From a virus, in IMG/VR virus record IMGVR_UViG_3300017917_002963, positions 1-57,880 of that record: 57,880 nt of DNA. One strand, given 5' to 3'. A program made the translations under genes and the position numbers. This document shows, piece by piece, positions 24,938 through 57,171 of this stretch. The notes beneath the pieces were generated by a model. The model saw only the letters and a program-made list of their open reading frames with translations, was not told the origin of the DNA and searched no databases. Each line of letters starts with the position of its first letter. The first letter of the stretch is position 1.

Positions 24938-27607
24938 ATGTCATACGTTGACGCATTATTTGACCGCAAACAAGACCGCATCCACGTGGTGGAACGCAGG
25001 GATGGGCAGAGGGTATACCAAGAGTTCCCAGCCAACTTTGTGTTCTACTACGATGATCCTCGGGGCAAGTTCCGTAGCATATACGGAAACCCTGTTTCCA
25101 GATTCAGCTGCAAAACAACCAAAGAGTTCCGCCAAGAAGTGCGAATGCATTCGGGCAAACAGTTGTACGAGAGCGACATCAACCCAGTGTTCCGCTGCCT
25201 GGAAGACAACTTCAAAGGCGCAGATGCACCCCGACTGCACACAGCATTTTTCGACATTGAGGTGGACTTCCACCAAGAGCGAGGCTACAGCCCAGTTGAC
25301 GACCCATTCAATGCCATCACTTCGATCTCGGTCTACTTGGACTGGTTGGATCAGCTGATTACTCTGGCTGTGCCACCGCGGCACATGAGCATGGAAACCG
25401 CCCTGGTCCTGGTCGAGGACTTTCCCAACACCTACCTGTTCAGCGAAGAGTCTGACATGCTCAAGGTGTTCTTGGACGTGATCCAAGACGCCGACGTCCT
25501 AAGCGGCTGGAACTCAGAGGGTTACGATATTCCCTATACCGTAAACCGTGTGACTCGAGTGCTCAGCAAGGACGACACACGCAAGTTCTGTCTGTGGGGG
25601 CAGTATCCCAAGCCACGCATGTTCGAGCGCTTTGGCGCCGAGAGCCAAACATACGACCTTGTGGGTCGTGTGCACATGGACTACATGCAGCTCTACCGGA
25701 AATACACCTACGAAGAACGCCACAGCTACAGCTTGGATGCCATCTTGGAGTATGAAGGCTTGGAAGGCAAAACCAAGTACGAAGGTACCTTGGATCAGCT
25801 GTACAACCAGAACTTCAAAAAGTTCATTGAATACAACCGCCAAGACGTTAACGGCCTGGCGCTGATGGACAAGAAACTCAAGTTCCTGGATCTGGCCAAC
25901 ACACTGGCGCACGAAAACACTGTGCTGTTGCAGACCACAATGGGCGCGGTGGCAGTGACCGAACAGGCCATCATCAACGAAGCGCATGAACGTGGCATGG
26001 TGGTGCCCAATCGCAAGGAGTATGCATCCAGCGAAGAAACTCAGGCAGCAGGCGCCTACGTGGCCTATCCCAAGAAAGGCATGCACGAGTGGGTGGGATC
26101 GATTGACATCAACAGCTTGTATCCTTCCACCATTCGGGCCTTGAACATGGGTCCTGAAACCATTGTGGGACAGTTGAGGCTCACTGCCACCGACCAGTTG
26201 ATCAAGCAACGCATGGCAGAGGGATCCAGCTTTGCTGCAGCCTGGGAAGGCTTGTTTGGCACACTGGAATACACTGCCATGATGAACCAAGATCGTGGCA
26301 CCGAAATCACCATTGACTGGGAAGACGGATCCGAAACCACACACTCGGCTGCCGAAGTGTGGTACATGATGTTTGACAGCAACCAGCCCTGGACCATCAG
26401 CGCCAACGGCACCATATTCACATACGAGCGAGAGGGTGTGATTCCCGGACTGCTCAAGCGGTGGTATGCTGAACGTAAACAGATGCAGGCCAAGGTCAAG
26501 GCTGCAATCGAAGCAGGCGACAAGGTCGCAGAGGAATACTGGGACAAGCGACAGCTGGTCAAGAAGATTAACCTCAACAGCTTGTATGGTGCCATTCTCA
26601 ACCCCGGTTGCAGATTTTTCGACAAGCGCATTGGACAATCAACCACACTGACAGGGCGCAGCATTGCTCGACACATGGATGCTTATGTGAACGAATGCAT
26701 CACTGGGGTGTATGACCACGTGGGCGACAGCATCATTTACGGTGACACTGACAGTTGTTATTTCTCAGCCTGGCCTGCGCTGAAGTCAGAAGTGGCTGCT
26801 GGACGCATGGAGTGGACTCCGGAAACCTGTATTGCACTGTATGATTCCATTGCTGAACAAGTGAACCAGAGTTTCCCTGGATTCATGGAGCAGGCATTCC
26901 ATGTGCCACGTGACATGGGATCGGTCATCCGCGGTGGTCGTGAAGTTGTGGGCAGCAAAGGCTTGTTCATTACCAAGAAGCGCTATGCGCTCATGATCAT
27001 CGACAAGGAAGGCAAGAGAAAAGATGTCAACGGCAAACCAGGCTCGGTCAAGGCCATGGGCTTGGACCTCAAGAGGTCAGACACTCCCAAGGTGATTCAG
27101 GAGTTCTTGAGTGAGATCTTGAACAGTGTGCTGACCGGCGCTGACCGCGACAGTGTTGTGGAACGCATTCGCGAGTTCAAGTATGCATTTGCCGAGCGTC
27201 CGGCCTGGGAAAAAGGTTCGCCCAAGCGTGTGAACAACTTGACCATGTATGGCGCCAAAGAAGCCAAACAGGGCAAAGCCAACATGCCTGGTCATGTGCG
27301 AGCAGCGCTGAACTGGAACACCATGCGGCAGATGAATTCGGACAACTACAGCATGAGGATCATCGACGGCATGAAGACCATTGTGTGCAAGCTCAAACCC
27401 AACCCCCTGGGCTGGACTTCGATTGGTTATCCCACTGACGAGCAGCGCTTGCCCGCATGGTTCACTGAGCTGCCGTTTGATGATCGCGAGATGGAAGCCA
27501 CTGTGGTGGATCAAAAGATCGACAACTTGTTGGGTGTGCTGAACTGGGACCTGGCTGGTGCTACCAATACCGAGACCACGTTCAACACATTGTTTTCGTT
27601 CGAATAA
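24938..27607 (+). CDS. 43: family B DNA polymerase (T4 gp43-like, 889 aa)
   Basis: Replicative polymerase. Exo I is FFDIEVDF (D106, E108), Exo II GWNSEGYDIPYTVNR, and Exo III YNRQDVNGL. Polymerase motif A is DINSLYPS (D390), motif B KKINLNSLYGA, and motif C YGDTDSCYF (D603, D605). Length and residue spacing are close to T4 gp43 (898 aa). The C-terminus ends TLFSFE, plausibly a clamp-binding tail like that of gp43 (inference). A strong Shine-Dalgarno (CAGGAGAA) precedes ATG 24938. No intein or intron interrupts the motifs. Confidence 0.97.
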   Translation: MSYVDALFDRKQDRIHVVERRDGQRVYQEFPANFVFYYDDPRGKFRSIYGNPVSRFSCKTTKEFRQEVRMHSGKQLYESDINPVFRCLEDNFKGADAPRLHTAFFDIEVDFHQERGYSPVDDPFNAITSISVYLDWLDQLITLAVPPRHMSMETALVLVEDFPNTYLFSEESDMLKVFLDVIQDADVLSGWNSEGYDIPYTVNRVTRVLSKDDTRKFCLWGQYPKPRMFERFGAESQTYDLVGRVHMDYMQLYRKYTYEERHSYSLDAILEYEGLEGKTKYEGTLDQLYNQNFKKFIEYNRQDVNGLALMDKKLKFLDLANTLAHENTVLLQTTMGAVAVTEQAIINEAHERGMVVPNRKEYASSEETQAAGAYVAYPKKGMHEWVGSIDINSLYPSTIRALNMGPETIVGQLRLTATDQLIKQRMAEGSSFAAAWEGLFGTLEYTAMMNQDRGTEITIDWEDGSETTHSAAEVWYMMFDSNQPWTISANGTIFTYEREGVIPGLLKRWYAERKQMQAKVKAAIEAGDKVAEEYWDKRQLVKKINLNSLYGAILNPGCRFFDKRIGQSTTLTGRSIARHMDAYVNECITGVYDHVGDSIIYGDTDSCYFSAWPALKSEVAAGRMEWTPETCIALYDSIAEQVNQSFPGFMEQAFHVPRDMGSVIRGGREVVGSKGLFITKKRYALMIIDKEGKRKDVNGKPGSVKAMGLDLKRSDTPKVIQEFLSEILNSVLTGADRDSVVERIREFKYAFAERPAWEKGSPKRVNNLTMYGAKEAKQGKANMPGHVRAALNWNTMRQMNSDNYSMRIIDGMKTIVCKLKPNPLGWTSIGYPTDEQRLPAWFTELPFDDREMEATVVDQKIDNLLGVLNWDLAGATNTETTFNTLFSFE

Positions 27608-32560: not shown

Positions 32561-33765
32561 GAAAACTTTACTACATGGGACTTGAGTCCTACGAAGCACG
32601 ATACACCTTGCAACTGACCGAGTGGAACCGTCGTGTGTTTGACCGCCGTGGCTTGGACGTGGTATACGTGCCGGGCAACACCATTGACAACTCTCAGGCC
32701 ATCTCAGTGGGCCAAGTCCTGGATGCACATGGTCGCAGCTACTTCAGCATGAGCCAGTTGATGAATCTGGTGCAGATGATGAAGAACGGCAAAGTCACTG
32801 CCGAGGACGTGGTGTTCTTTGAGGACATGTTCCAGCCTGGTATTGAGAGCTTGGCCTACATCCTGGACCAAGTGCCTGAATCTGCACGACCACGCATCTA
32901 TGTTCGTTGTTTGGCTCAAAGCATCGACCCCGATGACTTTGTGCATGTGTGGGGCATGAGCCGGTGGATGGGATTGTATGAGCAGATGGTGAACGAACTG
33001 GTGCTCAAGTCTGGCGGCGCTGTGTTGGCCACTAATGAAGAAATGGTTGCACACATGCGAATCGCAGGTTGGACTGCACCCATCTACAACATCTCGGGCC
33101 TGGCATTCGGCAAGTCAGAAGTTCAAGAGCGCGTGGAAAACCACATTCGCCCATTCCACGAACGCCAGCGTCGTGTGGTGTTTGCGGCGCGGTGGGATCA
33201 GGAAAAACAGCCTGACTTCTACATGGACCTGATCGAAGCATGGCACAGCCAGGACACAACCGGTGTGACCTTTGAACTGTTGCAAGGCGGGCCCTTGCGC
33301 AGCAATGACGCTCGCTACATCGATCGCGCCAGGGACATGGACAGTCGTGGACTGTTGACCATTCGCGAAAACCTCAAGAAGAATGAGTACTACAACCTTC
33401 TCAACAACAGCCGTGTGTTGTTCAACTGTGCGCTGCAAGACTGGGTGTCAAACACAGTGAGCGAAGCAGATGCCCTGGGCTGCAATGTGCTGTATCCAGC
33501 CTATCGCAGTTTCCCCGAGACCTTTGCCAACGACGCTGATCGCTTGTATGTGCCCTGGAGCATGACAGATGCCATGGCCAAGCTGCAACAGTTGTTGGAC
33601 GCGCCGCATGTGAACCAGGGACGGATCTCGGACTGGAACAATGGCACCATTGATCGTTGTGTTGACATCATGACTGGGCAAGGCGAGCAATGGCGGCGCA
33701 CTGACCGCGATTATCGCAATCACACCAGAGCTGCCAAGTATGAGTCCAACAGGGGGCACCAATGA
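32557..33765 (+). CDS. glycosyltransferase, GT-B type (402 aa)
   Basis: Two-lobed organisation. The C-terminal half has VVFAARWDQEKQPDFYMDLIEAW, the strand-helix after the linker in family 4-like enzymes. VLFNCALQDWVSNTVSEADALGCNVLYPAYRSFPE follows, matching the E-x7-E-like nucleotide-sugar site (sEAdAlG). The acceptor is unknown. It is coupled to a sugar-nucleotide epimerase, so the two may supply one surface or DNA glycan. No signal peptide or membrane segment. Confidence 0.8.
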   Translation: MRKLYYMGLESYEARYTLQLTEWNRRVFDRRGLDVVYVPGNTIDNSQAISVGQVLDAHGRSYFSMSQLMNLVQMMKNGKVTAEDVVFFEDMFQPGIESLAYILDQVPESARPRIYVRCLAQSIDPDDFVHVWGMSRWMGLYEQMVNELVLKSGGAVLATNEEMVAHMRIAGWTAPIYNISGLAFGKSEVQERVENHIRPFHERQRRVVFAARWDQEKQPDFYMDLIEAWHSQDTTGVTFELLQGGPLRSNDARYIDRARDMDSRGLLTIRENLKKNEYYNLLNNSRVLFNCALQDWVSNTVSEADALGCNVLYPAYRSFPETFANDADRLYVPWSMTDAMAKLQQLLDAPHVNQGRISDWNNGTIDRCVDIMTGQGEQWRRTDRDYRNHTRAAKYESNRGHQ

Positions 33766-34721
33766 GTCAGCATGTGATAGTGACCGGTGGCGGTGGCTAC
33801 ATCGGCGGGCAAGTGGCCTTGATGCTGGTGGATGCAGGCTATCGGGTCACTGTGATTGATCGTGCAGAATGCCCCGATCACCTGGTGGGTGTGGATCTGA
33901 CCTACGAGTGCTTGGATTTTGATTCCAGTTCAGCACATCGTGTGATCCTCATGGCAGCGCCAGATGCCATCATTCACTGCGCTGGCACCAGCTTGGTTGG
34001 TCCCAGCATGACCAATCCACAGGACTACTACCAGAACAACGTGGTCAAGACTCAACGCTTGATTGACTTTGTCAAACAGGCCCTGCCCGCCACAAGAATC
34101 ATCTTCAGTAGCAGTGCTGCGGTGTATGGTGAGCCGGTGATGACTCCGTGTCACGAAGTGGATCCTTGCGATCCCATCAGCCCCTATGGTCGCAGCAAGT
34201 TGGCCATTGAATGGATGCTGCGAGACTACCATGCAGCATATGGCCTAGACTATGTGGCATTCCGCTTCTTCAACGCCTGCGGTGCTGATTCGCAAGCACG
34301 TCACGGTCAAGCCCCTGGCGCTACTCACATCATTGCCCGTGTGCTGGAAAGTGTGAGAGACCAACGGCCGTTTACTCTGTACGGGGTAGACTATCCCACA
34401 GCTGATGGTACCTGTGTGCGTGACTATGTGCATGTGGAAGACATTGCTCGTGCGCACCTTGCAGCCCTGGATCGGTCAGTGCCCGCAGGTGTGTACAACC
34501 TAGGCTCGGCCCAAGGCACCAGCAACCGTCAGATCATCGCAGCGGTGACTCGGCTCACTAGCCGCACCGTGGATGTGCAATTAGGCGAGGCTCGCGCAGG
34601 TGATCCCCCGCTGTTGACTGCCAGCTCGGCACAGTTTGATCGTGTGTGTCCCAGCTGGAGGCAATACAATTTGGACCACATGATCCAGCATGCCTGGCAG
34701 TGGTACAATCAAAGTGCTTGA
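33762..34721 (+). CDS. galE: NAD-dependent UDP-glucose 4-epimerase-like enzyme (319 aa)
   Basis: Extended SDR: TGGGGYIGGQVALMLVDAGY is the Rossmann GxxGxxG. FSSSAAVYG and YGRSKLAIEWML carry the catalytic Ser and YxxxK. FRFFNACGAD and VRDYVHVEDIARAHL match the GalE substrate region. Length fits GalE (about 338). It interconverts UDP-hexoses at C4; exact substrate not provable. It overlaps the glycosyltransferase stop by 4 bases. Confidence 0.88.
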   Translation: MSQHVIVTGGGGYIGGQVALMLVDAGYRVTVIDRAECPDHLVGVDLTYECLDFDSSSAHRVILMAAPDAIIHCAGTSLVGPSMTNPQDYYQNNVVKTQRLIDFVKQALPATRIIFSSSAAVYGEPVMTPCHEVDPCDPISPYGRSKLAIEWMLRDYHAAYGLDYVAFRFFNACGADSQARHGQAPGATHIIARVLESVRDQRPFTLYGVDYPTADGTCVRDYVHVEDIARAHLAALDRSVPAGVYNLGSAQGTSNRQIIAAVTRLTSRTVDVQLGEARAGDPPLLTASSAQFDRVCPSWRQYNLDHMIQHAWQWYNQSA

Positions 34722-34804: not shown

Positions 34805-36037
34805 ATGACAGATACTAGTAAGCCCCTATCACAAGCCATTCGCGAACAAAGCAAACTAAGCCAGTTTCGACTATACAGCGGACTAAAATTAATCGAAACA
34901 GGCAGCAATCGAGGAACAACAGATTATGCCGGTTCTGCAGCAGAACTCGGTATAACTGAACAGCAACTCAGAAAGATAATTGAACGAGTTAAAGGCATGT
35001 ACGGGCGCGAACCGGAATCGACTATCACTGTTGTCGAATACGTCAAAAAACTCAAAGAATCAAACGTGTCGCCAGACGATGTTGGGATAGGAGACGGAAA
35101 ATACCAAGCTGGGAGAAAAAACCACGACCTGCCGTATTCGTTTGATAATTTTGAATTTATTACGCAGCATGATAATTTGCTGGAAAAAGAAGAGAGGCTA
35201 AAAGAATCCAGCCGCTGGACAGCAAAACCAGTCATGACTCCGTTTGGAAAAGTAGAAAGTTTGGTCAAAGCGGCTGAGCAATTTGATGTCAACGTGGCTA
35301 CTATTAAGCGATGGATTGATTCTGGCGACGAGAAATACGCCGACTGGTTTTACGAAGGCGAGTATCCAGAAAAAATTGCAAAAAGAATGCGGCAAGACGG
35401 CAAACGTTTCTGGGCGGGCGATAACATAAGCGAGTATGTTGAAAATTTAGACATGCTGATCGATGACCTTGCGCCGAGATTCGAATCGGTGCTGAAGGGG
35501 CTTGTGATTGATACCGACACCGACCCCAACAGTCATGGCACAGCTCGCAGACTAGCCAAAATGTATGTTAGAGAAACAATGAGTGGACGCTATGACCCAG
35601 CACCAGACGCAACAGCATTTCCCAATAACTCGGAGGACCGCTACGAAGGTATGTTGGTTGTTCGCAGCGAGCTTCGCAGCATGTGCAGTCATCATCACCA
35701 ACCTGTCAGTGGTGTTGCTTATATTGGCATTATTGCTGCTGAGAAGCTCATCGGCCTCTCCAAGTACACCCGTATCGCACAGTGGTGCGCCCGACGTGGT
35801 ACTCTCCAGGAGGAGTTGGCTAATGACATTGCTCGGGAAATCATGAAGGCCACTGGTGCGAAGGATGTAGGTGTTTACATACAGGCCACGCACGGGTGCT
35901 GTGAAAACCGCGGCATCATGGCACACTCCAGTCTCACACAGACCACTGTGCTGAAAGGTGCATTCAAAAGCGATCCCGGTGTCAAGAAAGAGTTCTTTGA
36001 CAACATCAAACTTCAACAAGACTTTGCTCCGAGGTAA
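34805..36037 (+). CDS. folE: GTP cyclohydrolase I with fused homing-endonuclease-like N-terminal region (410 aa)
   Basis: The last ~210 residues are GTP cyclohydrolase I: SHGTARRLAKMYVRETM, the zinc motif SMCSHHHQPVSG, LIGLSKYTRI and HGCCENRG. It makes 7,8-dihydroneopterin triphosphate, the first step to 7-deazaguanine (and folate). The first ~200 residues are not FolE. AKPVMTPFGKVESLVKAAEQFDVNVATIKRWIDSG is a helix-turn-helix repeat typical of the DNA-binding part of HNH/GIY-YIG homing endonucleases. Its DNA is AT-richer than the FolE part, indicating an acquired segment fused in frame. Confidence 0.9.
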   Translation: MTDTSKPLSQAIREQSKLSQFRLYSGLKLIETGSNRGTTDYAGSAAELGITEQQLRKIIERVKGMYGREPESTITVVEYVKKLKESNVSPDDVGIGDGKYQAGRKNHDLPYSFDNFEFITQHDNLLEKEERLKESSRWTAKPVMTPFGKVESLVKAAEQFDVNVATIKRWIDSGDEKYADWFYEGEYPEKIAKRMRQDGKRFWAGDNISEYVENLDMLIDDLAPRFESVLKGLVIDTDTDPNSHGTARRLAKMYVRETMSGRYDPAPDATAFPNNSEDRYEGMLVVRSELRSMCSHHHQPVSGVAYIGIIAAEKLIGLSKYTRIAQWCARRGTLQEELANDIAREIMKATGAKDVGVYIQATHGCCENRGIMAHSSLTQTTVLKGAFKSDPGVKKEFFDNIKLQQDFAPR

Positions 36038-37842: not shown

Positions 37843-38451
37843 ATGTTAGATCGTATTTTTGGAACGTTGGATCGTGGCCTGGTTGCAAAACTGGTTGCGT
37901 TCCAGATTTTTGTCATTGCCATCAGCAATTGGATTGTGAGCTACAGTTTCAACATCTTTGGAACTGCACTCAGCTATGCGGCATTCACATTCCCCTTGGT
38001 GGTTGTGGCCACTGACCTCACTGTGCGAATGGTGGGCAAGGAAATGGGTCGTGTGGTGGTCACACTGTCATTCATCCCAGCCATCCTGATCAGCATGGCC
38101 ATTGTGGCCATGAGTGGAGCACCCTCCAACGTTGCCATCAGCATTGGTCTTGCTTCGGGCTGTGCCTACGCTGTGAGTACCATCCTAGACGTGTATGTGT
38201 TCAGTTACTTCCGCGAGAAGTATACGCAATGGTGGATCGCACCCACATTTGCCAGCGTGTTTACCATGATCATTGACACCTATACCTTCTACTATGTGGC
38301 CTTTGCCAATGTGCCCGGCAGCCCGTTTGAGCACAACTGGTTCAGCGCAGCGGCTGCCCACAGTGTGACCAAGATCGCAGTGAGCCTGTTGGTGATCCTG
38401 CCTGCATACGGTGTACTGCTCAACTACCTGCAAAAGCGGCTGGTCAAGTAA
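37843..38451 (+). CDS. yhhQ: queuosine precursor transporter, YhhQ/DUF165 family (202 aa)
   Basis: An integral membrane protein with about six hydrophobic segments. ANWIVSYSFNIFG, FTFPLVVVATDLTVRMVGKE and WWIAPTFASVFTMIIDTYTFYYVAF fit the YhhQ pattern (conserved D in the TDL and IDT helices). Host YhhQ imports preQ0/preQ1. Beside folE, queD, queE and dpdA, it probably salvages deazaguanine for DNA modification. Shine-Dalgarno AAGGAAA is present. Confidence 0.85.
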   Translation: MLDRIFGTLDRGLVAKLVAFQIFVIAISNWIVSYSFNIFGTALSYAAFTFPLVVVATDLTVRMVGKEMGRVVVTLSFIPAILISMAIVAMSGAPSNVAISIGLASGCAYAVSTILDVYVFSYFREKYTQWWIAPTFASVFTMIIDTYTFYYVAFANVPGSPFEHNWFSAAAAHSVTKIAVSLLVILPAYGVLLNYLQKRLVK

Positions 38452-40243: not shown

Positions 40244-41224
40244 ATGAAAACAGCTTTTATCACAGGCATTGCTGGGCAAGACGGCAGCTATTTGGCCGAA
40301 CACCTGCTGGAACAGGGGTATCGAGTCACTGGCATTGTTCGTCGCAACAGCACAGTGGAGCACCAGAAAGACCGTATTGGTGATCTTCCAGTGGAAGTGG
40401 AGTACGGAGATTTGACTGACCAGAGCAGCCTGGAACGCGCACTGAGAATCTATCAACCAGACGAAATCTACAACCTCGCAGCACAGAGCCATGTGCGTAT
40501 TTCAAGCGACATTCCTCAGTTTACCACTCAAGTCAATGCATTGGGCGTGGTAAACATGTTAGAAGCTTACCGAACCGTGGTGCCACAGGCTCGATTTTAT
40601 CAAGCCAGCTCAAGTGAAATGTTTGGTAGCAGCGTGGATCCTGACAACTATCAGCGTGAAACCACTCCCATGCGTCCAGTGAGCCCATACGGTTGCACCA
40701 AGGTGTTTGCCTATAACATGGTGCATCACTACCGCAATGCCTACCGATTGCATGCCAGCAACGGTATCTTGTTCAATCACGAAAGCCCACGACGTGGATC
40801 AAACTTTGTGACCAACAAGGTGGTCAAGGGTGCTGTGCAGATTTCTCTGGGGCTGGCCAAGACCCTGGAATTGGGCAACATGGACAGCTATCGTGACTGG
40901 GGACACAGTTATGACTACGTGCGAGCCATGCACTTGATTCTACAACAAGATCAACCCAATGACTTTGTTGTGGCCACTGGCATTACTCGTTCGGTTCGCG
41001 ACATGTGTGAATATGTGTTTGGGCGCCTGGGCTTGAACTATCAGGACCATGTGGTTCAGAATCCCAAATACCTGCGGCCCGAAGAGCTGCCGTATCTGCG
41101 CGGCGACAACAGCAAGATCACCACACAGCTGGGTTGGAAGCCCACGTACACGTTTGAAGCACTCATGGACGAAATGATTGCTCACTGGCAACAAGTTTAC
41201 AAACACAAGGAAGCAAATGAGTAA
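40244..41224 (+). CDS. gmd: GDP-mannose 4,6-dehydratase (326 aa)
   Basis: ITGIAGQDGSYLAEHLLEQGY is the hallmark Gmd Rossmann segment. QASSSEMFGS and VSPYGCTKVFAYNMV give the catalytic Thr/Ser-Glu and YxxxK. NGILFNHESPRRGSNFVT is also typical. It converts GDP-mannose to GDP-4-keto-6-deoxymannose, precursor of fucose and rhamnose-type sugars. Slightly short against bacterial Gmd (about 370). It overlaps queE by 8 bases. Confidence 0.93.
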   Translation: MKTAFITGIAGQDGSYLAEHLLEQGYRVTGIVRRNSTVEHQKDRIGDLPVEVEYGDLTDQSSLERALRIYQPDEIYNLAAQSHVRISSDIPQFTTQVNALGVVNMLEAYRTVVPQARFYQASSSEMFGSSVDPDNYQRETTPMRPVSPYGCTKVFAYNMVHHYRNAYRLHASNGILFNHESPRRGSNFVTNKVVKGAVQISLGLAKTLELGNMDSYRDWGHSYDYVRAMHLILQQDQPNDFVVATGITRSVRDMCEYVFGRLGLNYQDHVVQNPKYLRPEELPYLRGDNSKITTQLGWKPTYTFEALMDEMIAHWQQVYKHKEANE

Positions 41225-46277: not shown

Positions 46278-46952
46278 ATGTACTCGAACTCAACTTATCT
46301 TTCGGCTAGTGAAATCAACACCGCCATGGCCGGCGTCTACAAACACATGGCGCTGGCTGTGTTGACCAGCATGGTTGTGAGCTGGGCAGTGAGCACTTCG
46401 CCTGCACTCATGGCCCTGTTGTTTGGGACTGCCCTGAAATGGGTGGTGATCTTTGCGCCCTTGGTGGCTGTGTTTGCCATGGGCATGAGCCTGCATCGAG
46501 TTGGCGCCGGCACAGCGGTGGCCATGCTGCATGGCTTTGCTGCACTCATGGGCTTGAGCATGTCCACCATATTTGCGGTGTACACATCACTCAGCATCTT
46601 CACAGCATTCATGAGCGCGGCCGTGCTGTTTGGGGTCATGAGCATTTACGGATACTTCACCAAGAAGGATCTGTCAAGCCTGGGCCAATATCTGTTTGTG
46701 GGCTTGATTGCCATCATCATTGCCAGCGTGATCAACATCTTTGTGGGCAGCAGCATTGCACAAATGGTGATCAGCGCCATTGCAGTGATTGTGTTCCTGG
46801 GTCTCACTGCCTATGACACACAAAACATTCGCGATCAGCTGACGTCAGGTGCAGGCGGCAACGTGGAGATTGCAGGTGCCTTGAGCTTGTATCTCAACTT
46901 CATCAACCTGTTCATGAGCCTGTTGCAACTGTTTGGCAATCGCGAGGACTGA
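46278..46952 (+). CDS. Bax-inhibitor-1/YccA-family membrane protein (224 aa)
   Basis: Seven hydrophobic segments separated by short loops. The C-terminal ALSLYLNFINLFMSLLQLFGNR and GLTAYDTQNIRDQL, with the Asp of the YDTQ motif, are signatures of BI-1/YccA proteins. In bacteria YccA modulates the FtsH membrane protease; related proteins conduct calcium. Phage copies may shield membrane proteins or delay lysis (inference). A TAAATA box (46252-46257) and Shine-Dalgarno AAGGAG precede it. Confidence 0.9.
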   Translation: MYSNSTYLSASEINTAMAGVYKHMALAVLTSMVVSWAVSTSPALMALLFGTALKWVVIFAPLVAVFAMGMSLHRVGAGTAVAMLHGFAALMGLSMSTIFAVYTSLSIFTAFMSAAVLFGVMSIYGYFTKKDLSSLGQYLFVGLIAIIIASVINIFVGSSIAQMVISAIAVIVFLGLTAYDTQNIRDQLTSGAGGNVEIAGALSLYLNFINLFMSLLQLFGNRED

Positions 46953-52588: not shown

Positions 52589-52664
52589 GCGCCGGTAGCT
52601 CAATGGTTAGAGCAGTGGACTCATAATCCATTGGTTGGGGGTTCAAGTCCCTCCGGGCGCACCA
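52589..52664 (+). tRNA. tRNA-Met (CAT)
   Basis: Standard 76-base cloverleaf with encoded CCA. The acceptor is GCGCCGG/CGGGCGC with one G-G mismatch. D arm GCTC/GAGC. Anticodon arm GTGGA-CTCATAA-TCCAT. T loop TTCAAGT. CAT could also be an elongator Ile decoder if modified to lysidine. Confidence 0.93.
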
Positions 52665-52669
52665 AATTT

Positions 52670-52744
52670 CTGGGGTTCGTATAATGGATAATACAGGGGT
52701 CTTCTAAGCCCTTAATAGAGGTTCGATTCCTCTACCCCGGGCCA
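52670..52744 (+). tRNA. tRNA-Arg (TCT)
   Basis: 75 bases. Acceptor CTGGGGT/ACCCCGG, discriminator G, CCA encoded. D arm GTAT/ATAC, anticodon loop CTTCTAA, T loop TTCGATT. It sits 5 bases after tRNA-Met and would read AGA, a codon usually rare in GC-leaning hosts. Confidence 0.92.
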
Positions 52745-52764
52745 ACTTTTTCAAAAGGTGTTTC

Positions 52765-53043
52765 ATGAGCGACAAGTCCAAACCCATCAAAGTGATTTTT
52801 TCCCCCGGCTGTTTTGACCACTTGGACTTGGCGAGCCAGGACGAAGTGGATCAGCTGACTCAAGAGCTGACAGAAATGTTTGCCAACATGACTCCGGAAC
52901 AACTTGAGGGCATGAGTGTGCAACTGAGCGAGGAAGAATTCCAAGCCATCATGGCGGACCTGGCAGAGGAAGATGCGGCCGATGCCCTGGCTGCACAAGA
53001 GCTCAACCTCATGCACTTCCCTGCACCCACCACTCTGCAGTGA
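52765..53043 (+). CDS. acidic hypothetical protein (92 aa)
   Basis: Starts 20 bases after tRNA-Arg with Shine-Dalgarno AAAGG. Very Glu/Asp-rich helical protein (DEVDQLTQELTEMFANMTPEQLEG). Possibly a DNA mimic or adaptor by charge alone; not assignable. Confidence 0.6.
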   Translation: MSDKSKPIKVIFSPGCFDHLDLASQDEVDQLTQELTEMFANMTPEQLEGMSVQLSEEEFQAIMADLAEEDAADALAAQELNLMHFPAPTTLQ

Positions 53044-53088
53044 CAGTGTGCATGCCCGAAATAACGGTACTGGTCAATAAATACCAGC

Positions 53089-53169
53089 ATGTTGAGACTG
53101 CTGGCAATATTCATTTTCGTGGTTTGGCTGCTACGGCAGTGGAACGAAAAATCCGATGACGACAAGTGA
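53089..53169 (+). CDS. candidate 26-aa membrane microprotein
   Basis: ATG 53089 follows a TAAATACC box at 53077. The peptide is one hydrophobic helix (LLAIFIFVVWLL) plus a charged tail (NEKSDDDK). No clear Shine-Dalgarno, so low confidence, but charge and hydrophobicity match small phage membrane proteins. Confidence 0.35.
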   Translation: MLRLLAIFIFVVWLLRQWNEKSDDDK

Positions 53170-53184
53170 TGTTGCCCAAAACAT

Positions 53185-53213
53185 TTGACAAGTGTTATAC
53201 TATCAAAAATAAT
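53185..53213 (+). promoter_or_regulatory. sigma70-like promoter
   Basis: TTGACA (53185-53190), 17-base spacer, AATAAT (53208-53213), just upstream of the 53225 gene. Confidence 0.6.
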
Positions 53214-53224
53214 AGAGTTAACCA

Positions 53225-53461
53225 ATGAGCGGATTCAACACATACAATGAATGCGTAGAGTGGTCAAAAGAATATATCGGTAGCCAAGAACTATGGATAT
53301 TTGAGGATCATGATGGTGAGTTCCACGCTATTTCGCTGGTCAACGGTCAAGCAACATTCAATCACTACGCACATACAAACAAGTGGATTCCGCGAGGTAG
53401 GGTGTTTACTGAAACCAAAGTGGTCACAATGTGGACCGGAGTGCAGCCTGACCCATTATAA
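53225..53461 (+). CDS. hypothetical protein (78 aa)
   Basis: MSGFNTYNECVEWSKEYIG ... LWIFEDHDGEFHAISLVNGQATF. Beta-rich small protein with its own promoter, immediately before the tmRNA gene. Unknown. Confidence 0.6.
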   Translation: MSGFNTYNECVEWSKEYIGSQELWIFEDHDGEFHAISLVNGQATFNHYAHTNKWIPRGRVFTETKVVTMWTGVQPDPL

Positions 53462-53569
53462 AGCATGCTAGCGAAGGACTAACCTTTTAAACTAGGGGGA
53501 CGACCAATCCCGAGATACATTTCAACGAAAGTTGACGCTGGTACGGCTAGTATGTTTTATAATGGATCA

Positions 53570-53645
53570 TAAGTAAGAGTTATTGCTGTATGAAGTGAGC
53601 AGAAACGGATTCAAGACGCGGGTTCGACTCCCGCCTGGTCCACCA
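53570..53645 (+). ncRNA. tmRNA acceptor piece
   Basis: Contains the 3' tRNA-like half: GACGCGGGTTCGACTCCCGC matches the near-invariant tmRNA T-arm region, followed by acceptor CTGGTCC (53635-53641), A, CCA. The 5' boundary is estimated from the TATAAT at 53558. Confidence 0.8.
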
Positions 53646-53725
53646 CAAGTAATCTAGAATGTGCTGTAGAAGCATAGAAGACCACTAAGCGGGCAACAGG
53701 ACTTGGGTTTTAGATTACTTTTGAT
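53646..53725 (+). ncRNA. tmRNA intervening segment with paired ends
   Basis: AAGTAATCTA (53647-53656) is perfectly complementary to TAGATTACTT (53711-53720). The spacer would thus fold into a 10-bp stem stacked on the acceptor stem, presenting both piece ends for processing. The loop is 54 bases. Confidence 0.8.
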
Positions 53726-53890
53726 GGGCCAGACCTGGCTTCGATTGGGTCAAGAGTATGCAAATGGACAGCACGGTAGGCGATGACCGTAAATCAAGCA
53801 AAATAGTAACTGCAACCGCAGCTAACGACGAAGTCTTCGCTCTCGCAGCGTGATTTCCGAGGCAACTATGCCTTGTCACCCAAAATAGTA
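53726..53890 (+). ncRNA. tmRNA coding piece
   Basis: Begins GGGCCAGACCTGGCTTCGAT and carries the tag reading frame. A hairpin (GAGGC ... GCCTT) downstream of the tag stop probably ends the piece. The 3' end is uncertain. Confidence 0.8.
53809..53853 (+). CDS. tmRNA proteolysis tag (TATAANDEVFALAA)
   Basis: In frame after TAGTA (53804-53808), the position equivalent to UAGUC in E. coli, codons give TATAANDEVFALAA then TGA. The ANDE ... ALAA form matches beta/gammaproteobacterial tags recognised by ClpXP/ClpAP. The exact resume codon (ACT or GCA) is not certain. Confidence 0.85.
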   Translation, partial: TATAANDEVFALAA

Positions 53891-53917
53891 AAAAGGCTAC
53901 TTCGGTAGCCTTTTTTC
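53891..53917 (+). terminator. rho-independent terminator of tmRNA
   Basis: AAGGCTAC-TTCG-GTAGCCTT stem with a TTCG tetraloop followed by a T tract. Confidence 0.92.
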
Positions 53918-53952
53918 TTGGTTTTTTGTGATCTGTCATATATAATAACACT

Positions 53953-54048
53953 ATGAAACGCACCAACACATCACTCAACATATTGTGGTCCTTAGACAAT
54001 CTGGCCACCTATGAGCGTGACTATGGTGGGAGGTCTTTGTTGAGTTGA
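53953..54048 (+). CDS. possible 31-aa leader peptide
   Basis: ATG 53953 lies just after TATAATAACAC. The frame (MKRTNTSLNILWSL ... GGRSLLS) ends inside the left arm of an inverted repeat that can compete with the terminator at 54082. No clear Shine-Dalgarno. It could be a leader peptide in an attenuator, or a leaderless microprotein. Confidence 0.35.
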   Translation: MKRTNTSLNILWSLDNLATYERDYGGRSLLS

Positions 54049-54083
54049 CACTGTGACAGTGTAGTGATAACCCAACAAAGACC
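54032..54083 (+). promoter_or_regulatory. inverted repeat overlapping a terminator (attenuator-like)
   Basis: GGTCTTTGTTG (54032-54042) pairs perfectly with CAACAAAGACC (54073-54083). The last three bases are shared with the terminator stem beginning at 54082, so the two hairpins may be mutually influencing. Confidence 0.5.
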
Positions 54084-54110
54084 CTCCAAACTGGAGGGTT
54101 TTGTTTTTTG
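54082..54110 (+). terminator. rho-independent terminator
   Basis: CCCTCC-AAACT-GGAGGG stem followed by TTTTGTTTTTT. Confidence 0.88.
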
Positions 54111-54113
54111 TAG

Positions 54114-54142
54114 TTGACTGAAAATCCCAGTGGTGCTACAAT
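54114..54142 (+). promoter_or_regulatory. sigma70-like promoter
   Basis: TTGACT (54114-54119), 17-base spacer, TACAAT (54137-54142), right after the terminator. It restarts transcription into the tRNA array. Confidence 0.8.
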
Positions 54143-54217
54143 AGAGACAACTAGGAAGAACTGTGTTGCAAGTTTTTCCCAACAGCAGGCAGTGTTGCAA
54201 AACAACAACACCTGCAG

Positions 54218-54246
54218 TTGACACAAAAAGCTGTATGTCTTACAAT
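54218..54246 (+). promoter_or_regulatory. sigma70-like promoter
   Basis: TTGACA (54218-54223), 17-base spacer, TACAAT (54241-54246). Nearly the same layout as the promoter at 54501. Confidence 0.8.
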
Positions 54247-54305
54247 AGATGTATGGTAAGGAGAACGGTGCATCGACACTGTGATCCCAAGTTCGTTAAC
54301 AATCA

Positions 54306-54493
54306 GCAGTGCAGTTTAGGCTGATGACGGCAATCGTCAGAAGGTCTGTATCTTGTCCCTTGGCGCACCGCTTTGCCGAGCGCACCGCTTAGGAGTCGCC
54401 CATAGTGTAGCGGAATGCATACCGTCCTAACAGGACGGGGGCTGGGTTCGAGTCCCAATGGTGTTTAACAAGCGTCAGCCTAAACTGCACTGC
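54306..54493 (+). repeat. 19-bp perfect inverted repeat enclosing a tRNA-like element
   Basis: GCAGTGCAGTTTAGGCTGA (54306-54324) and its exact reverse complement (54475-54493) bracket 150 bases. Those contain a TGACG-GCAAT-CGTCA hairpin, a tandem GCGCACCGCTT motif and the tRNA-like element at 54396-54470. The stem would isolate this RNA domain. Confidence 0.85.
54396..54470 (+). tRNA. tRNA-like element with AAC anticodon and poorly paired acceptor
   Basis: A clear anticodon arm (CCGTC-CTAACAG-GACGG, anticodon AAC, nominally Val) and T arm (TGGG-TTCGAGT-CCCA) are present. The D arm is weak (TGT/GCA), and the flanking acceptor strands do not pair beyond four bases. No CCA. Either a decayed tRNA or a tRNA-like domain within the bracketing stem. 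Confidence 0.45.
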
Positions 54494-54500
54494 AGAACAG

Positions 54501-54529
54501 TTGACACAAAATCGCAGGCGTGCTACAAT
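54501..54529 (+). promoter_or_regulatory. sigma70-like promoter
   Basis: TTGACA (54501-54506), 17-base spacer, TACAAT (54524-54529), just after the 19-bp inverted repeat. Confidence 0.8.
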
Positions 54530-54584
54530 GCATGCATGCGTTGAGAAATCAACATTGTTCATTAAAAATTTGCACACATGGCAT

Positions 54585-54644
54585 TCCTGGAACTTGACTT
54601 AGATGTCAGTTCAGCGGACTTGTTCCGCAGAGCGGTTCCAGGAG
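54585..54644 (+). ncRNA. structured RNA segment
   Basis: TCCTGGAAC pairs with GTTCCAGGA at the ends of this segment and encloses a GCGGA-CTTGT-TCCGC hairpin. No tRNA features. Part of the array transcript. Confidence 0.45.
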
Positions 54645-54734
54645 GCCATATTCAAACGCACTAGATTTCTTTTGGTCGCATGACGGCGCTGTCCGGACTT
54701 GTGCTAGATTCCTTTTAGTGTGTTTGAATATGGC
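54645..54734 (+). repeat. spacer hairpin 1 (18-bp stem, 54-nt loop)
   Basis: GCCATATTCAAACGCACT (54645-54662) pairs with AGTGTGTTTGAATATGGC (54717-54734) with one G-U. The loop contains two copies of CTAGATTYCTTTT. Same design as the other array spacers. Confidence 0.85.
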
Positions 54735-54780
54735 ATGTGTCTGATCCACACTTGTCATAGTCGGGAGTAATTAACCCGAC

Positions 54781-54910
54781 GACCCGTGGTAGTTTAATGG
54801 TAAAACGCAGCGAGGCGTTGGTTCGAACCCAACCTTGGGGTACGCCCTGAGTAGCTCAGTCGGTAGAGCGCAGCGCGATGAGGGTTTCGAAGTCCCTCCC
54901 ACAATGGGTC
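54781..54910 (+). ncRNA. paired tRNA-like units without anticodon arms, acceptor strands swapped
   Basis: Unit 1 has strand GACCCGT, D arm GTTT-AATGGTA-AAAC, then only GCAGCGAGGC, T arm GTTGG-TTCGAAC-CCAAC and strand CTTGGGG. Unit 2 has strand CCCTGAG, TA, D arm GCTC-AGTCGGTA-GAGC, then GCAGCGCG, T arm around GAGGG/CCCTC and strand ATGGGTC. Acceptors do not pair within units. GACCCGT pairs with ATGGGTC (7/7, one G-U), and CTTGGGG with CCCTGAG (7/7, two G-U) across a TACG tetraloop. The result is a six-armed tRNA-like RNA with no anticodon. Confidence 0.75.
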
Positions 54911-55003
54911 ATTAGCGAGATTTTTACAGAGGCTGGTAACCTAGGAACCCGTATCAGGCGGGGCTTGCAGAATGACCATCTGCATGTAAATGTCTCACTA
55001 ATG
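54910..55003 (+). repeat. spacer hairpin 2
   Basis: CATTAGCGAGA (54910-54920) pairs with TCTCACTAATG (54993-55003) with one mismatch. Pairing continues TTTTACA with TGTAAA(T). The loop is about 56 bases. It starts on the last base of the swapped tRNA-like element. Confidence 0.75.
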
Positions 55004-55018
55004 CCTCATATCAAGGCG

Positions 55019-55100
55019 CTATATGCAAACGCACTCTATCCTGGATCGTATGGTCTGGGAGACAACAGGGCTCATGCTCTGGTAGTGTGTTTCCATATAG
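55019..55100 (+). repeat. spacer hairpin 3
   Basis: CTATATGCAAACGCACT (55019-55035) pairs with AGTGTGTTTCCATATAG (55084-55100), 16 of 17 positions. The AAACGCACT/AGTGTGTTT core is shared with hairpin 1. It ends one base before tRNA-Glu. Confidence 0.85.
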
Positions 55101-55101
55101 T

Positions 55102-55176
55102 GGAGCTATCGTCTATCGGTTAGGACATCAGGTTTTCATCCTGAGAAGCGGGGTTCGATTCCCCGTAGCTCTTCCA
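55102..55176 (+). tRNA. tRNA-Glu (TTC), copy 1
   Basis: Acceptor GGAGCTA/TAGCTCT (terminal G-U), discriminator T, CCA encoded. The D region CGTCTATCGGTTAGGAC is typical for Glu. Anticodon arm TCAGG-TTTTCAT-CCTGA. T loop TTCGATT. Confidence 0.88.
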
Positions 55177-55181
55177 AGTTT

Positions 55182-55254
55182 TTGAAGTGTAAGGCATATG
55201 GGTAAGTGACTTGGCTCACGCTGATATCGACCGCCCGTTAGCAGTGCATTTCAA
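55182..55254 (+). repeat. spacer hairpin 4
   Basis: TTGAAGTGTA (55182-55191) pairs with TGCATTTCAA (55245-55254) over ten positions with G-U pairs. It starts 5 bases after the Glu CCA and ends 3 bases before tRNA-Asp. The loop is 53 bases. Confidence 0.75.
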
Positions 55255-55257
55255 TCT

Positions 55258-55332
55258 GGTGCGTTCATATAATGGTCATTATCCTGGATTGTCTATCCAG
55301 AGACGGGAGTTCGATTCTCCCACGCATCGCCA
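55258..55332 (+). tRNA. tRNA-Asp (GTC), copy 1
   Basis: Acceptor GGTGCGT/ACGCATC with one G-U, G73, CCA. Anticodon arm CTGGA-TTGTCTA-TCCAG. T arm GGGAG-TTCGATT-CTCCC. Confidence 0.9.
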
Positions 55333-55341
55333 AGTTTTCAT

Positions 55342-55416
55342 ACTCAGTTCGTCTATCGGTTAGGACAGTGGACTTTCAATCCGCAAAGACGGGTTCGACT
55401 CCCGTACTGAGTGCCA
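55342..55416 (+). tRNA. tRNA-Glu (TTC), copy 2
   Basis: Acceptor ACTCAGT/ACTGAGT fully paired, G73, CCA. Anticodon arm GTGGA-CTTTCAA-TCCGC. T loop TTCGACT. It shares the Glu-type D arm with copy 1 but has a different acceptor. Confidence 0.88.
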
Positions 55417-55425
55417 GGTTATCAT

Positions 55426-55515
55426 GGATGTGCTGAGCATTGGCGAGCTCAAGTGGCTGTAACCCACCCGCATACAAATAAGACTGTGTTGGTTCAACTC
55501 CAACCGCATCCACCA
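55426..55515 (+). tRNA. tRNA-Tyr (GTA), copy 1, long variable arm
   Basis: 90 bases, class II. Acceptor GGATGTG/CGCATCC, A73, CCA. The D arm is GAGC-ATTGGCGA-GCTC (strands reversed relative to the usual GCTC ... GAGC). Anticodon arm GTGG-CTGTAAC-CCAC. A long variable region is followed by T arm GTTGG-TTCAACT-CCAAC. Confidence 0.75.
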
Positions 55516-55589
55516 AGTTTTCCGGAGAGTCGCGCGAATGCGTATTCTTAAACGACCCGGTATCAGGGCGTCCTGTAGTTGATATTCAT

Positions 55590-55678
55590 GGAGCTTGTTC
55601 CCTACGGCGGACTGTAAATCCGTTACCTGAATTGTAGGGTGGTCAAGGTAAGTGGTTCGATTCCATCAGGCTCCACCA
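55590..55678 (+). tRNA. tRNA-Tyr-like (GTA), copy 2, with abnormal D region
   Basis: Acceptor GGAGCTT/AGGCTCC fully paired (G-U allowed), A73, CCA. Anticodon arm GGA-CTGTAAA-TCC. There is no closed D arm: its 5' strand CCCTAC matches GTAGGG in the loop of the long variable arm (stem TTACC/GGTAA), implying a pseudoknot. The variable loop also holds GTGGTCAA, which looks like a displaced D loop. Confidence 0.65.
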
Positions 55679-55684
55679 AGATGT

Positions 55685-55760
55685 AGGCTTTAGAGTGATT
55701 GGAAATCCTATCTCCCTCACATGGAGATGTTGCACGGTTTGAGTCCGTGATAGCCCACCA
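55685..55760 (+). tRNA. tRNA-like, CAC anticodon (Val), weak acceptor
   Basis: Anticodon arm TCTCC-CTCACAT-GGAGA and T arm CACGG-TTTGAGT-CCGTG are good, and CCA is encoded. The acceptor AGGCTTT/ATAGCCC pairs at only five of seven positions, and TAGG/CCTA offers an alternative long D-like arm. May be functional with mismatches or decayed. Confidence 0.55.
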
Positions 55761-55764
55761 AACG

Positions 55765-55828
55765 AAACACACCAGTGAGGGTCGGTCCCTTTCTATAGAG
55801 ATTCCCAAGGAATGCAGCTGGTGTGTTT
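55765..55828 (+). repeat. spacer hairpin 5
   Basis: AAACACACCAG (55765-55775) pairs perfectly with CTGGTGTGTTT (55818-55828). The loop is 42 bases. It starts 4 bases after the preceding CCA. Confidence 0.85.
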
Positions 55829-55919
55829 TGTAACCAAGGCGAATGTCATTGACCTCTCGGATGTCAGTGACCAACGGTTGTAAGTGACGATGGGTGGTAT
55901 CGGAACTTTCACGAATCAT

Positions 55920-56000
55920 GTGCGTGTGGTCTAAATGTTAGGGCACAAGGCAAGAGGGTAAAACCTCCGGATGCGGGTTCGAATCCCGTCACGCACGCCG
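55920..56000 (+). tRNA. Leu-like tRNA element with irregular anticodon arm
   Basis: Acceptor GTGCGTG/CACGCAC perfectly paired and T arm GCGGG-TTCGAAT-CCCGT normal, with G73 then CCG. The interior has GAGG-GTAAAA-CCTC, a six-base loop, so no standard anticodon can be read. Flank sequences resemble tRNA-Leu (TGTGGT; CCGGxTGCGGG). Confidence 0.5.
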
Positions 56001-56243
56001 AGCAACTAAGGCAATACCCACTACTAGAGTAGATGGAAACCGACCCACTGTAACCGGTGGGCTTCACAAGTGCATAGGTCCACTCGGTAAGGCTGGCAGC
56101 ACTAGTGACGATGCGAGAGTAAGTCGGTCCAGTAGGGCAAGGAAAAGTATTGCTGGCGGAAAAAGCTGTCACCAGACAGAAGTTTGGGCACATCCTCGGA
56201 GGGGGTGGTTGGTCTAGACGCCGTGTGATCTGGTAAGAATTTT
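56001..56243 (+). ncRNA. 243-base structured RNA of unknown class
   Basis: Between two tRNAs lies a GC-balanced segment with strong hairpins, for example CCCAC-TGTAACC-G(G)TGGG near 56050 and CTGTC-ACCA-GACAG near 56172. It has GGAAA/GGTAA-type loops (GGAAAAG, CTCGGTAAG). No coding frame and no anticodon arm. The ACAGAAG after the second hairpin is reminiscent of RNase P RNA, but other core elements are missing. Confidence 0.45.
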
Positions 56244-56319
56244 GGACCCGTAGCTCAATCGGGAGAGCGCATGCCTGTCACGCATGAGGTAGCGAGATCG
56301 AAACTCGTCGGGTCCGCCA
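56244..56319 (+). tRNA. tRNA-Asp (GTC), copy 2, A54 T loop
   Basis: Acceptor GGACCCG/CGGGTCC, D arm GCTC/GAGC, anticodon arm CATGC-CTGTCAC-GCATG, G73, CCA. The T loop is ATCGAAA rather than the usual TTCRANN. Confidence 0.88.
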
Positions 56320-56325
56320 AAACAT

Positions 56326-56400
56326 GTTGCATTAGACTTCTGGTGAGGTCATCACCCTTTCAAGGTGACTAGACGGGATCGTAACCCGTATGCAACTCCA
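56326..56400 (+). tRNA. tRNA-Glu (TTC), copy 3, A54 T loop
   Basis: Acceptor GTTGCAT/ATGCAAC fully paired, D arm GACT/GGTC, anticodon arm TCACC-CTTTCAA-GGTGA, T loop ATCGTAA, discriminator T, CCA. Confidence 0.82.
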
Positions 56401-56408
56401 ATTTCCAT

Positions 56409-56487
56409 TCCGAGAAACCCGAGCAAGGTGCATGGGCTTGACTGTTAATCAATGGTTAGGTGGGTTCGATTCCCACACTCGGAGCCA
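56409..56487 (+). tRNA. tRNA-Asn (GTT)
   Basis: Acceptor TCCGAGA/ACTCGGA (six of seven), G73, CCA. D stem CCC/GGG with a long D loop. Anticodon loop CTGTTAA. T arm GTGGG-TTCGATT-CCCAC. The D arm is atypical for Asn. Confidence 0.8.
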
Positions 56488-56509
56488 ATTGTTGTTACGA
56501 AAATTTCAG

Positions 56510-56538
56510 TTGACACTTGCTGCGAAAAGTTGTATCAT
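56510..56538 (+). promoter_or_regulatory. sigma70-like promoter
   Basis: TTGACA (56510-56515), 17-base spacer, TATCAT (56533-56538), leading two small genes within the array. Confidence 0.75.
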
Positions 56539-56565
56539 ACAATTTTAACGCAGAAAGGTGGTGTC

Positions 56566-56766
56566 ATGCAGAACACAGTGATCATTGATCCGAGAGGTGC
56601 TCACGCTCCAACTCGCGACCAAGTGCTTCGCAAACTCATGCATACGCCACCGGATCAGTTGCAGAGTTTTATTGACATGCACAAAGATGGCTGGCTGGGC
56701 AGCGAAGGAGCCCTAGCAAGAGCCTGCGCCGCTGCCATCTATGCACTTGAACAACACTGCAAATAA
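56566..56766 (+). CDS. small hypothetical protein (66 aa)
   Basis: ATG 56566 has Shine-Dalgarno AAAGGTGG upstream. MQNTVIIDPRGAHAPTRDQVLRKL ... ALARACAAAIYALEQ. Helical; unknown. One of only a few protein genes inside the tRNA region. Confidence 0.65.
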   Translation: MQNTVIIDPRGAHAPTRDQVLRKLMHTPPDQLQSFIDMHKDGWLGSEGALARACAAAIYALEQHCK

Positions 56767-56789
56767 TTTTTCAACTGAAAGGCATTGAA

Positions 56790-56951
56790 ATGAGCAACAG
56801 CAATCAGCAACGTGAACAACTCGAACGAGAAATTCGTCGAAACGAACGTGAACTTCGAGACCCATACAATGAATCCAAGTGGGTCGAACAGGACTCCCTC
56901 AGGGAAGCCCGTGAAAAACTTCACGAGCTTGACCGCAACCAGCGGCGCTGA
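56790..56951 (+). CDS. 53-aa charged coiled-coil protein
   Basis: ATG 56790, Shine-Dalgarno AAAGG at about 56778. MSNSNQQREQLEREIRRNEREL ... SLREAREKLHELDRNQRR: an almost pure charged helix with heptad spacing. Unknown. Confidence 0.6.
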   Translation: MSNSNQQREQLEREIRRNERELRDPYNESKWVEQDSLREAREKLHELDRNQRR

Positions 56952-57091
56952 TTCCCTAGACGCGGAGCCAAATATATAGCAGAACACAATCGAAACTACC
57001 CCCGTAAAACTGGTCATCCTAGGAAATGCCAGAGTTGTTGCGTAGTAGGGCTCATTGTGTCAGAGGCGAGAACTCCTGCTATACTTTACAT

Positions 57092-57171
57092 GGCCGACGG
57101 GACTGCATGGAGTGGTCGCTTGCCTGTCACGCAAGAGAGTCAGAGGGGATCGTTACCCCTGTCGGTCGCCA
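57092..57171 (+). tRNA. tRNA-Asp (GTC), copy 3, A54 T loop
   Basis: Acceptor GGCCGAC/GTCGGTC (one G-U), D arm GACT/GGTC, anticodon arm CTTGC-CTGTCAC-GCAAG, T arm AGGGG-ATCGTTA-CCCCT, G73, CCA. A TATACT (about 57079-57084) lies just upstream. Its CCA is the start of the following spacer stem. Confidence 0.85.

Follow-up and report, generated by a model that had tools for sequence, protein, structure and literature searches.

Organization of the permuted tmRNA gene

Does the stretch of viral DNA analyzed here (57,880 nucleotides, hereafter the window) carry a complete tmRNA gene whose halves stand in permuted order, and, if so, does that gene serve the phage or is it a remnant of a host? ARAGORN called a permuted tmRNA (tmRNA*) at positions 53553-53944 of the forward strand, with the tag ATAANDEVFALAA. 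In a scan with all Rfam families, the tmRNA_permuted family (RF04321) matched positions 53584-53853 with 118.1 bits (E 1.8e-22) over the full model (1-213), and the beta_tmRNA family (RF01850) matched positions 53518-53916 with 117.1 bits, also over the full model (1-331); the respective gathering cut-offs are 47 and 84 bits. Neither a match to the one-piece tmRNA (RF00023) at gathering score nor a riboswitch above its cut-off was found by the Rfam scan anywhere in the window. A strict pattern of the permuted architecture occurred once in the window and in none of 100 shuffles, and the gene order obtained from ARAGORN, Rfam, and the pattern parse was that of an acceptor half with CCA, a spacer, and a coding half (Table 1). 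The region called by ARAGORN is a complete circularly permuted tmRNA gene. A coincidental fragment was ruled out by the covariance-model scores.

The first-pass annotation, made from the letters alone, had proposed a phage-encoded two-piece tmRNA at this locus, with the Rfam tmRNA models as a check and a one-piece ssrA elsewhere as a finding that would speak against it; the scores above bear this proposal out. The paired acceptor strands, the complementary spacer ends, and the downstream terminator that it described were likewise recovered at the positions listed in Table 1. Its reading of the tag had included one extra leading T (TATAANDEVFALAA instead of ATAANDEVFALAA).

Table 1. Positions of the tmRNA gene elements and of other features of the window discussed in the text.
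Feature	Position	Strand	Remarks
Acceptor piece: tRNA-like 3' half, inter-piece helix strands, T arm	53570-53645	+	5' end estimated
Acceptor 3' strand CTGGTCC	53635-53641	+	followed by A73 at 53642
Encoded CCA	53643-53645	+	end of acceptor piece
Spacer, 80 nt, expected to be removed	53646-53725	+	perfect 10-bp arms at 53647-53656 and 53711-53720
Coding piece: D-loop analogue, inter-piece helix strands, tag frame, downstream structure	53726-53885	+	3' end estimated
Acceptor 5' strand GGGCCAG	53726-53732	+	start of coding piece
Tag reading frame GCA...GCG TGA, ATAANDEVFALAA and stop	53812-53853	+	ARAGORN coding part, gene positions 260-301
Intrinsic-terminator-like hairpin, 11 bp, U-rich tail	53890-53915	+	downstream of the tag frame
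Weak candidate gene-proximal promoter, TTGACG 53532-53537 and TATAAT 53558-53563	53532-53563	+	sequence and beta_tmRNA model alignment
tRNA cluster housing the tmRNA gene, 11 tRNAs	52589-57171	+	ARAGORN
ClpA-like AAA+ unfoldase, C-terminal part	1-681	+	cut by contig end; IGF motif (NAIGFGSQ)
T4 gp43-type DNA polymerase	24938-27607	+	used for clade placement

The acceptor stem carries a G3·U70 wobble, and A73 and the encoded CCA are present as well; G3·U70 and A73 are the elements recognized by alanyl-tRNA synthetase. The tag frame is composed of a resume codon, a hydrophobic end in -AA, and a stop codon, and inspection of the sequence showed UAACU directly 5' of the resume GCA. The GCA at 53812 is the likely resume codon because UAACU precedes it, and ARAGORN chose the same site. 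The single-strand fold had a z value of -3.3. Regarding expression, the boxes of the candidate promoter are 20 nt apart, which is long, and are absent from the list of the consensus scan; in the alignment, they coincide with the promoter region included in the beta_tmRNA model.

Conservation of the RNA structure and the tag frame

Across related phages, both strands of the acceptor stem change, and the stem was fully paired in 40 of 40 cases in which the 3' strand had been found without a pairing filter; when the strands were swapped between phages, 7.7% were paired. The alignment of relatives also contained compensatory pairs in the inter-piece helix and the T arm, while a motif test of the outermost inter-piece helix, which is only partly clean, gave 28 own matches out of 42 versus 10% for swapped strands. 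The identity elements were retained in the 58 non-redundant relatives sharing the tag, a set parsed using a pairing filter: G3-U70 was present in 57, A73 in all 58, and CCA in 53. A small helix within the tag, proposed by RNAalifold, was judged spurious.

The tag frame was examined in 120 phage permuted tmRNAs sampled independently of their tags, although a few of these loci are shared with the tag scan described below. Third codon positions vary, and the N-terminal A-N and the C-terminal -AA are constant, from which we infer that the frame is translated; the tag ended in -LAA in 95 of the 120. The commonest core, counting ANDEVFALAA together with an ANA-extended form, accounted for 13 of the 120, so this tag is common among phage permuted tmRNAs without being the rule.

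Other viral contigs showed further variants of the gene. Long tags of 28-31 residues with the conserved core ANADTFDFSAMSFTGNTV... occurred in L152, L170, L174, L196, L252, L257, and others, and this peptide looks selected because its variation consists largely of synonymous codons. Another group of long tags has a KFSAR/RFSAR core and ends in ALAV or FAV rather than LAA (L363, L159, and L205; e.g., ANVNKTVTVSGKNIKFSARSAKEALAV), ends that might alter the degradation rate of tagged proteins. Spacers usually measured 30-130 nt, with very long ones of approximately 455 nt in L021, L088, and L109 and of several hundred nt in L126 (Sinorhizobium jumbo phage Phosso); these long spacers are a possible insertion.

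Distribution of the tag in viral and bacterial genomes

At least 119 viral contigs contain DNA that could encode ANDEVFALAA with a subsequent T. The collection of bacterial and archaeal genomes (one genome per species, contigs over 3 kb) yielded a single contig among 84,980 species genomes. Considering the viral contigs, the window, and this bacterial-collection contig together, 105 of the 121 cases were parsed as permuted tmRNAs; of the remaining 16, 14 are cut by a contig end. The match in the bacterial collection (DQKQ01000288.1, 6736 bases) belongs to a metagenome-assembled genome of Flavobacteriales. Besides its permuted tmRNA, which encodes the phage tag, this contig has Hsp20 and MazG-type genes that match phage families. 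Since these phage-type genes share the contig, it is probably a misbinned phage contig. The tag core thus appears, as judged from these scans, to be widespread in viral contigs and nearly absent from bacterial genomes. This seems to be a new observation, as a literature search found no papers naming these tag sequences.

When the gene was compared with GenBank phages by blast, the window itself matched tRNA-like stretches only, and searches starting from two of its relatives led to cultured phages; a comparison with plasmids gave no match. Permuted tmRNAs were identified in the cultured Stenotrophomonas phages Mendera, Bhz51, DLP_6, and QDWS359, the Xanthomonas phages X1 and Rb1, the Alcaligenes phage QDWS595, and BUCT-ZZ01, a phage of Synechococcus elongatus PCC 7942. 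The beta model was the best fit for the tmRNAs of DLP_6, BUCT-ZZ01, QDWS595, Mendera, and Bhz51. Stenotrophomonas, Xanthomonas, and S. elongatus are known as one-piece tmRNA organisms. As a control, RF04321 was run on 14 named genomes, of which one scored above the cut-off; we take this genome to be Caulobacter, a two-piece tmRNA organism, and not S. elongatus.

The form of a permuted phage tmRNA may therefore be at odds with that of hosts thought to use a one-piece tmRNA, which would be a second new observation. Because phages of such supposed one-piece hosts carry permuted genes, the form of the gene does not reveal the host. The suggestion of the first-pass annotation that the origin of the gene could do so is contradicted by the beta-type permuted tmRNAs in phages of Stenotrophomonas, S. 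elongatus, and Alcaligenes and by a tag that is essentially absent from bacterial genomes. Caution is advisable in general, as neither a tmRNA in a viral contig nor its permuted form identifies a host.

The carrier phage and its clade

The 57,880 bases make up an entire IMG/VR-type virus record, and comparison with its relatives marks this record as a fragment. Its DNA polymerase places it in a T4-related jumbo-phage clade, in agreement with the T4-like carrier named in the first-pass annotation, and the carrier is described as a large freshwater-type phage. Among the 80 top-ranking polymerase relatives, out of at least 599, those of viral contigs of up to 364 kb were 77-82% identical to the polymerase of the window; the identity to the polymerase of Phosso was 49.8%. 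Within the same 80, each of the six clade contigs that measure at least 138 kb carried a permuted tmRNA, and eight shorter clade fragments showed none, which is uninformative. The tags of the clade comprise ANDSQFALAA, ANDEKFLMAA (in two contigs), ANVNKTVTVSGKNIKFSARSAKEALAV, ANAANDEVFALAA, and ANDEVFALAA; the carrier of the ANVNKTVTVSGKNIKFSARSAKEALAV-type tag, L363, is the clade relative with a 347-kb contig (G016). No integrase was found among the proteins scanned.

Some additional genes of the window, all on the forward strand, deserve mention. A Bax inhibitor-1 family protein (PF01027, E 5.7e-54) is encoded at 46278-46952. Sugar-nucleotide epimerase and GDP-mannose 4,6-dehydratase genes are located at 33762-34721 and 40244-41224, suggesting phage-directed glycan modification. 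A GTP cyclohydrolase I domain protein is encoded at 34805-36037 and a Vut_1-family protein (PF02592, putative vitamin uptake transporter) at 37843-38451; genes of these types are seen in phages whose DNA contains guanine modified by the phage. Finally, the 1196-residue protein encoded at 17203-20793 has a weak, below-cut-off match to the ribosome modulation factor RMF (E 4e-05, residues 623-660).

SmpB and Clp proteins

A search of 16 records and of the six long clade contigs, covering the window contig as well as relatives, yielded no SmpB, whereas the ten control genomes were positive. The phage would therefore rely on the SmpB, alanyl-tRNA synthetase, EF-Tu, and processing enzymes of its host. 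Regarding the Clp-type ATPase gene that the first-pass annotation placed next to the tmRNA, its presence in the window was confirmed and the adjacency was rejected because of the distance, the ClpA-like C-terminal part lying approximately 53 kb away. This part includes an IGF motif, the loop by which ClpA and ClpX dock onto ClpP, and a functional link between the tmRNA and the ClpA-like gene of the window may be inferred.

ClpX, ClpP, and ClpA-like proteins are encoded by relatives of the clade, ClpX and ClpP having been seen in these relatives and not in the window fragment. The nearest long relative, a 349-kb contig, encodes a ClpX (above both equivalog cut-offs), a ClpP, and a ClpA-like protein. 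Its ClpX retains the zinc finger, GYVG, RKH, and IGF elements, which serve in ssrA-tag recognition and ClpP docking, and its ClpP belongs to the PRK00277 subfamily with the serine motif GQAASMGS. A second, divergent ClpP-like protein of this relative may be a head protease. Pairing of a tmRNA with ClpX, ClpP, and ClpA-like genes but without SmpB thus appears to be a third new feature, as far as the gene content of the clade indicates. The association of Clp proteins and tmRNA is not obligate: the jumbo phages Atu_ph07 and SCTP-2 have ClpP without a tmRNA match, and Mendera and DLP_6 have a tmRNA without ClpP.

Proposed function and alternative explanations

We consider it probable that the gene encodes a functional, phage-owned ribosome-rescue RNA that works during infection through host SmpB. 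The acceptor half, the spacer, and the coding half would be transcribed as a single precursor, from which host tRNA-processing enzymes would excise the spacer, leaving two pieces held together by the acceptor stem and the long inter-piece helix. The host alanyl-tRNA synthetase would charge the RNA via the G3-U70 wobble, and host SmpB would bring it to ribosomes that have stalled on broken mRNAs, a class of transcripts expected to abound in lytic takeover. The ribosome would then switch to the GCA at 53812, append ATAANDEVFALAA, and terminate at the TGA. The phage would benefit as the freed ribosomes became available to its mRNAs, while the C-terminal ALAA degron would mark the fragment for host Clp proteases and, probably, also for the ClpX, ClpP, and ClpA-like proteins of the phage clade.

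Three other explanations were weighed against this role. The gene might be a recent capture of a host ssrA, a passenger or a relic of integration beside ssrA without a selected role in the phage, and it does score above the beta_tmRNA cut-off, beta-type permuted tmRNAs being normal in Betaproteobacteria (PMC9004378, PMC11915505) and host ssrA genes acting as integration sites (PMC9004378). Such a capture is highly improbable because of the tag scan, which detected the core in 119 or more viral contigs versus the one contig of the bacterial collection; moreover, the six long clade contigs all retain a permuted tmRNA while their tags have diverged, and the gene is complete with its terminator, with no integrase among the proteins scanned. 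Very unlikely, too, is a decoy function, in which the RNA would obstruct trans-translation in the host by binding SmpB or ribosomes, a role suggested for mycobacteriophage DS6A, whose tmRNA has no tag. In E. coli, the endogenous tmRNA is inhibited by a phage tmRNA that lacks a tag (PMC11915505, PMC4131195), and the failure to find SmpB on the phage fits this idea; however, a decoy needs neither the full tag frame under protein-level selection, with its prevalent -LAA end, nor the intact alanine identity and CCA.

A redirection of proteolysis, in which the phage would recycle host or phage proteins by means of a degron and a ClpXP/ClpAP of its own and rescue would be a secondary effect, seems unlikely, although it draws on the Clp proteins of clade relatives, on the phage-specific tag core, and on the selective tagging of host proteins proposed by the authors of the Melnitz study (PMC9004378). 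Against it stand the lack of strict co-occurrence of ClpP and tmRNA, the variation of tags within the clade (ANDSQFALAA, ANDEKFLMAA, and ANVNKTVTVSGKNIKFSARSAKEALAV), and the absence of any sign that the tag is favored more by phage than by host unfoldases. A tag together with a protease makes an appealing combination; because ClpP and tmRNA each occur without the other, ribosome rescue is kept as the leading role. More tentatively, and with considerable doubt on our part, the permuted tmRNAs of the ANDEVFALAA type could be an old virus-owned lineage that has spread among phages of very different hosts regardless of the form of the host tmRNA, and which in the jumbo clade would form, with phage ClpX, ClpP, and ClpA, a nearly complete tag-and-degrade pathway borrowing only SmpB.

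Comparison with known systems

The first-pass annotation implied that a permuted tmRNA would be novel in such a phage, an impression overtaken by the literature: 53 two-piece tmRNAs, 50 of them in marine or aquatic phages, were reported in phage genomes in 2022 (PMC9004378), and the tmRNA database holds 79 phage sequences (PMC11915505). Menderavirus and other cultured phages have permuted tmRNAs too. A 2020 paper describes huge phages encoding tmRNA and SmpB (Al-Shayeb et al. 2020, PMC7162821), and sets of Clp genes have been reported from jumbo phages (PMC6102473, PMC11242549), the phage of the latter also bearing a tmRNA. Permuted phage tmRNAs and tmRNA-bearing huge phages are therefore already published, and the gene of the window adds one more case, confirming that large phages are commonly equipped with a permuted tmRNA. 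The main texts of the openly accessible papers searched did not state the near virus-only tag, the mismatch of form with the host, or the joint reading of the tmRNA with phage ClpX, ClpP, and ClpA. The tag offers a clean handle for asking if phages, during infection, operate ribosome rescue and proteolysis of their own.

The closest parallels are Methylophilales phage Melnitz, Pelagibacter phage Mosig, and others (PMC9004378), which, like the phage of the window, are myophages that combine T4-like genes with a circularly permuted ssrA, and in which the phage ssrA is at odds with the lineage of the known host. The Melnitz ssrA is related to those of Alphaproteobacteria and lies beside a glutamine riboswitch, whereas the gene of the window follows the beta model, has no riboswitch above cut-off, and resides in a jumbo-phage tRNA cluster. 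The permuted tmRNAs of Betaproteobacteria (RF01850) resemble it in gene order, tRNA-like domain, and downstream elements, but the ANDEVFALAA core is confined, among the 84,980 species genomes, to the one phage-like contig. The huge phages (PMC7162821) resemble the phage of the window in having a tmRNA within the takeover of translation; the accessible portion of that paper does not distinguish between permuted and one-piece forms, and it reports SmpB, which was not found in the clade of the window. Sinorhizobium jumbo phage AP-J-162 is listed with one tmRNA and six Clp genes (PMC11242549). Likewise, Phosso combines a permuted tmRNA with ClpA/ClpX/ClpP-type genes, as does the clade of the window; its tmRNA differs in fitting the alpha model, in a spacer several times longer, and in the tag ANDNVSTKVALAA.
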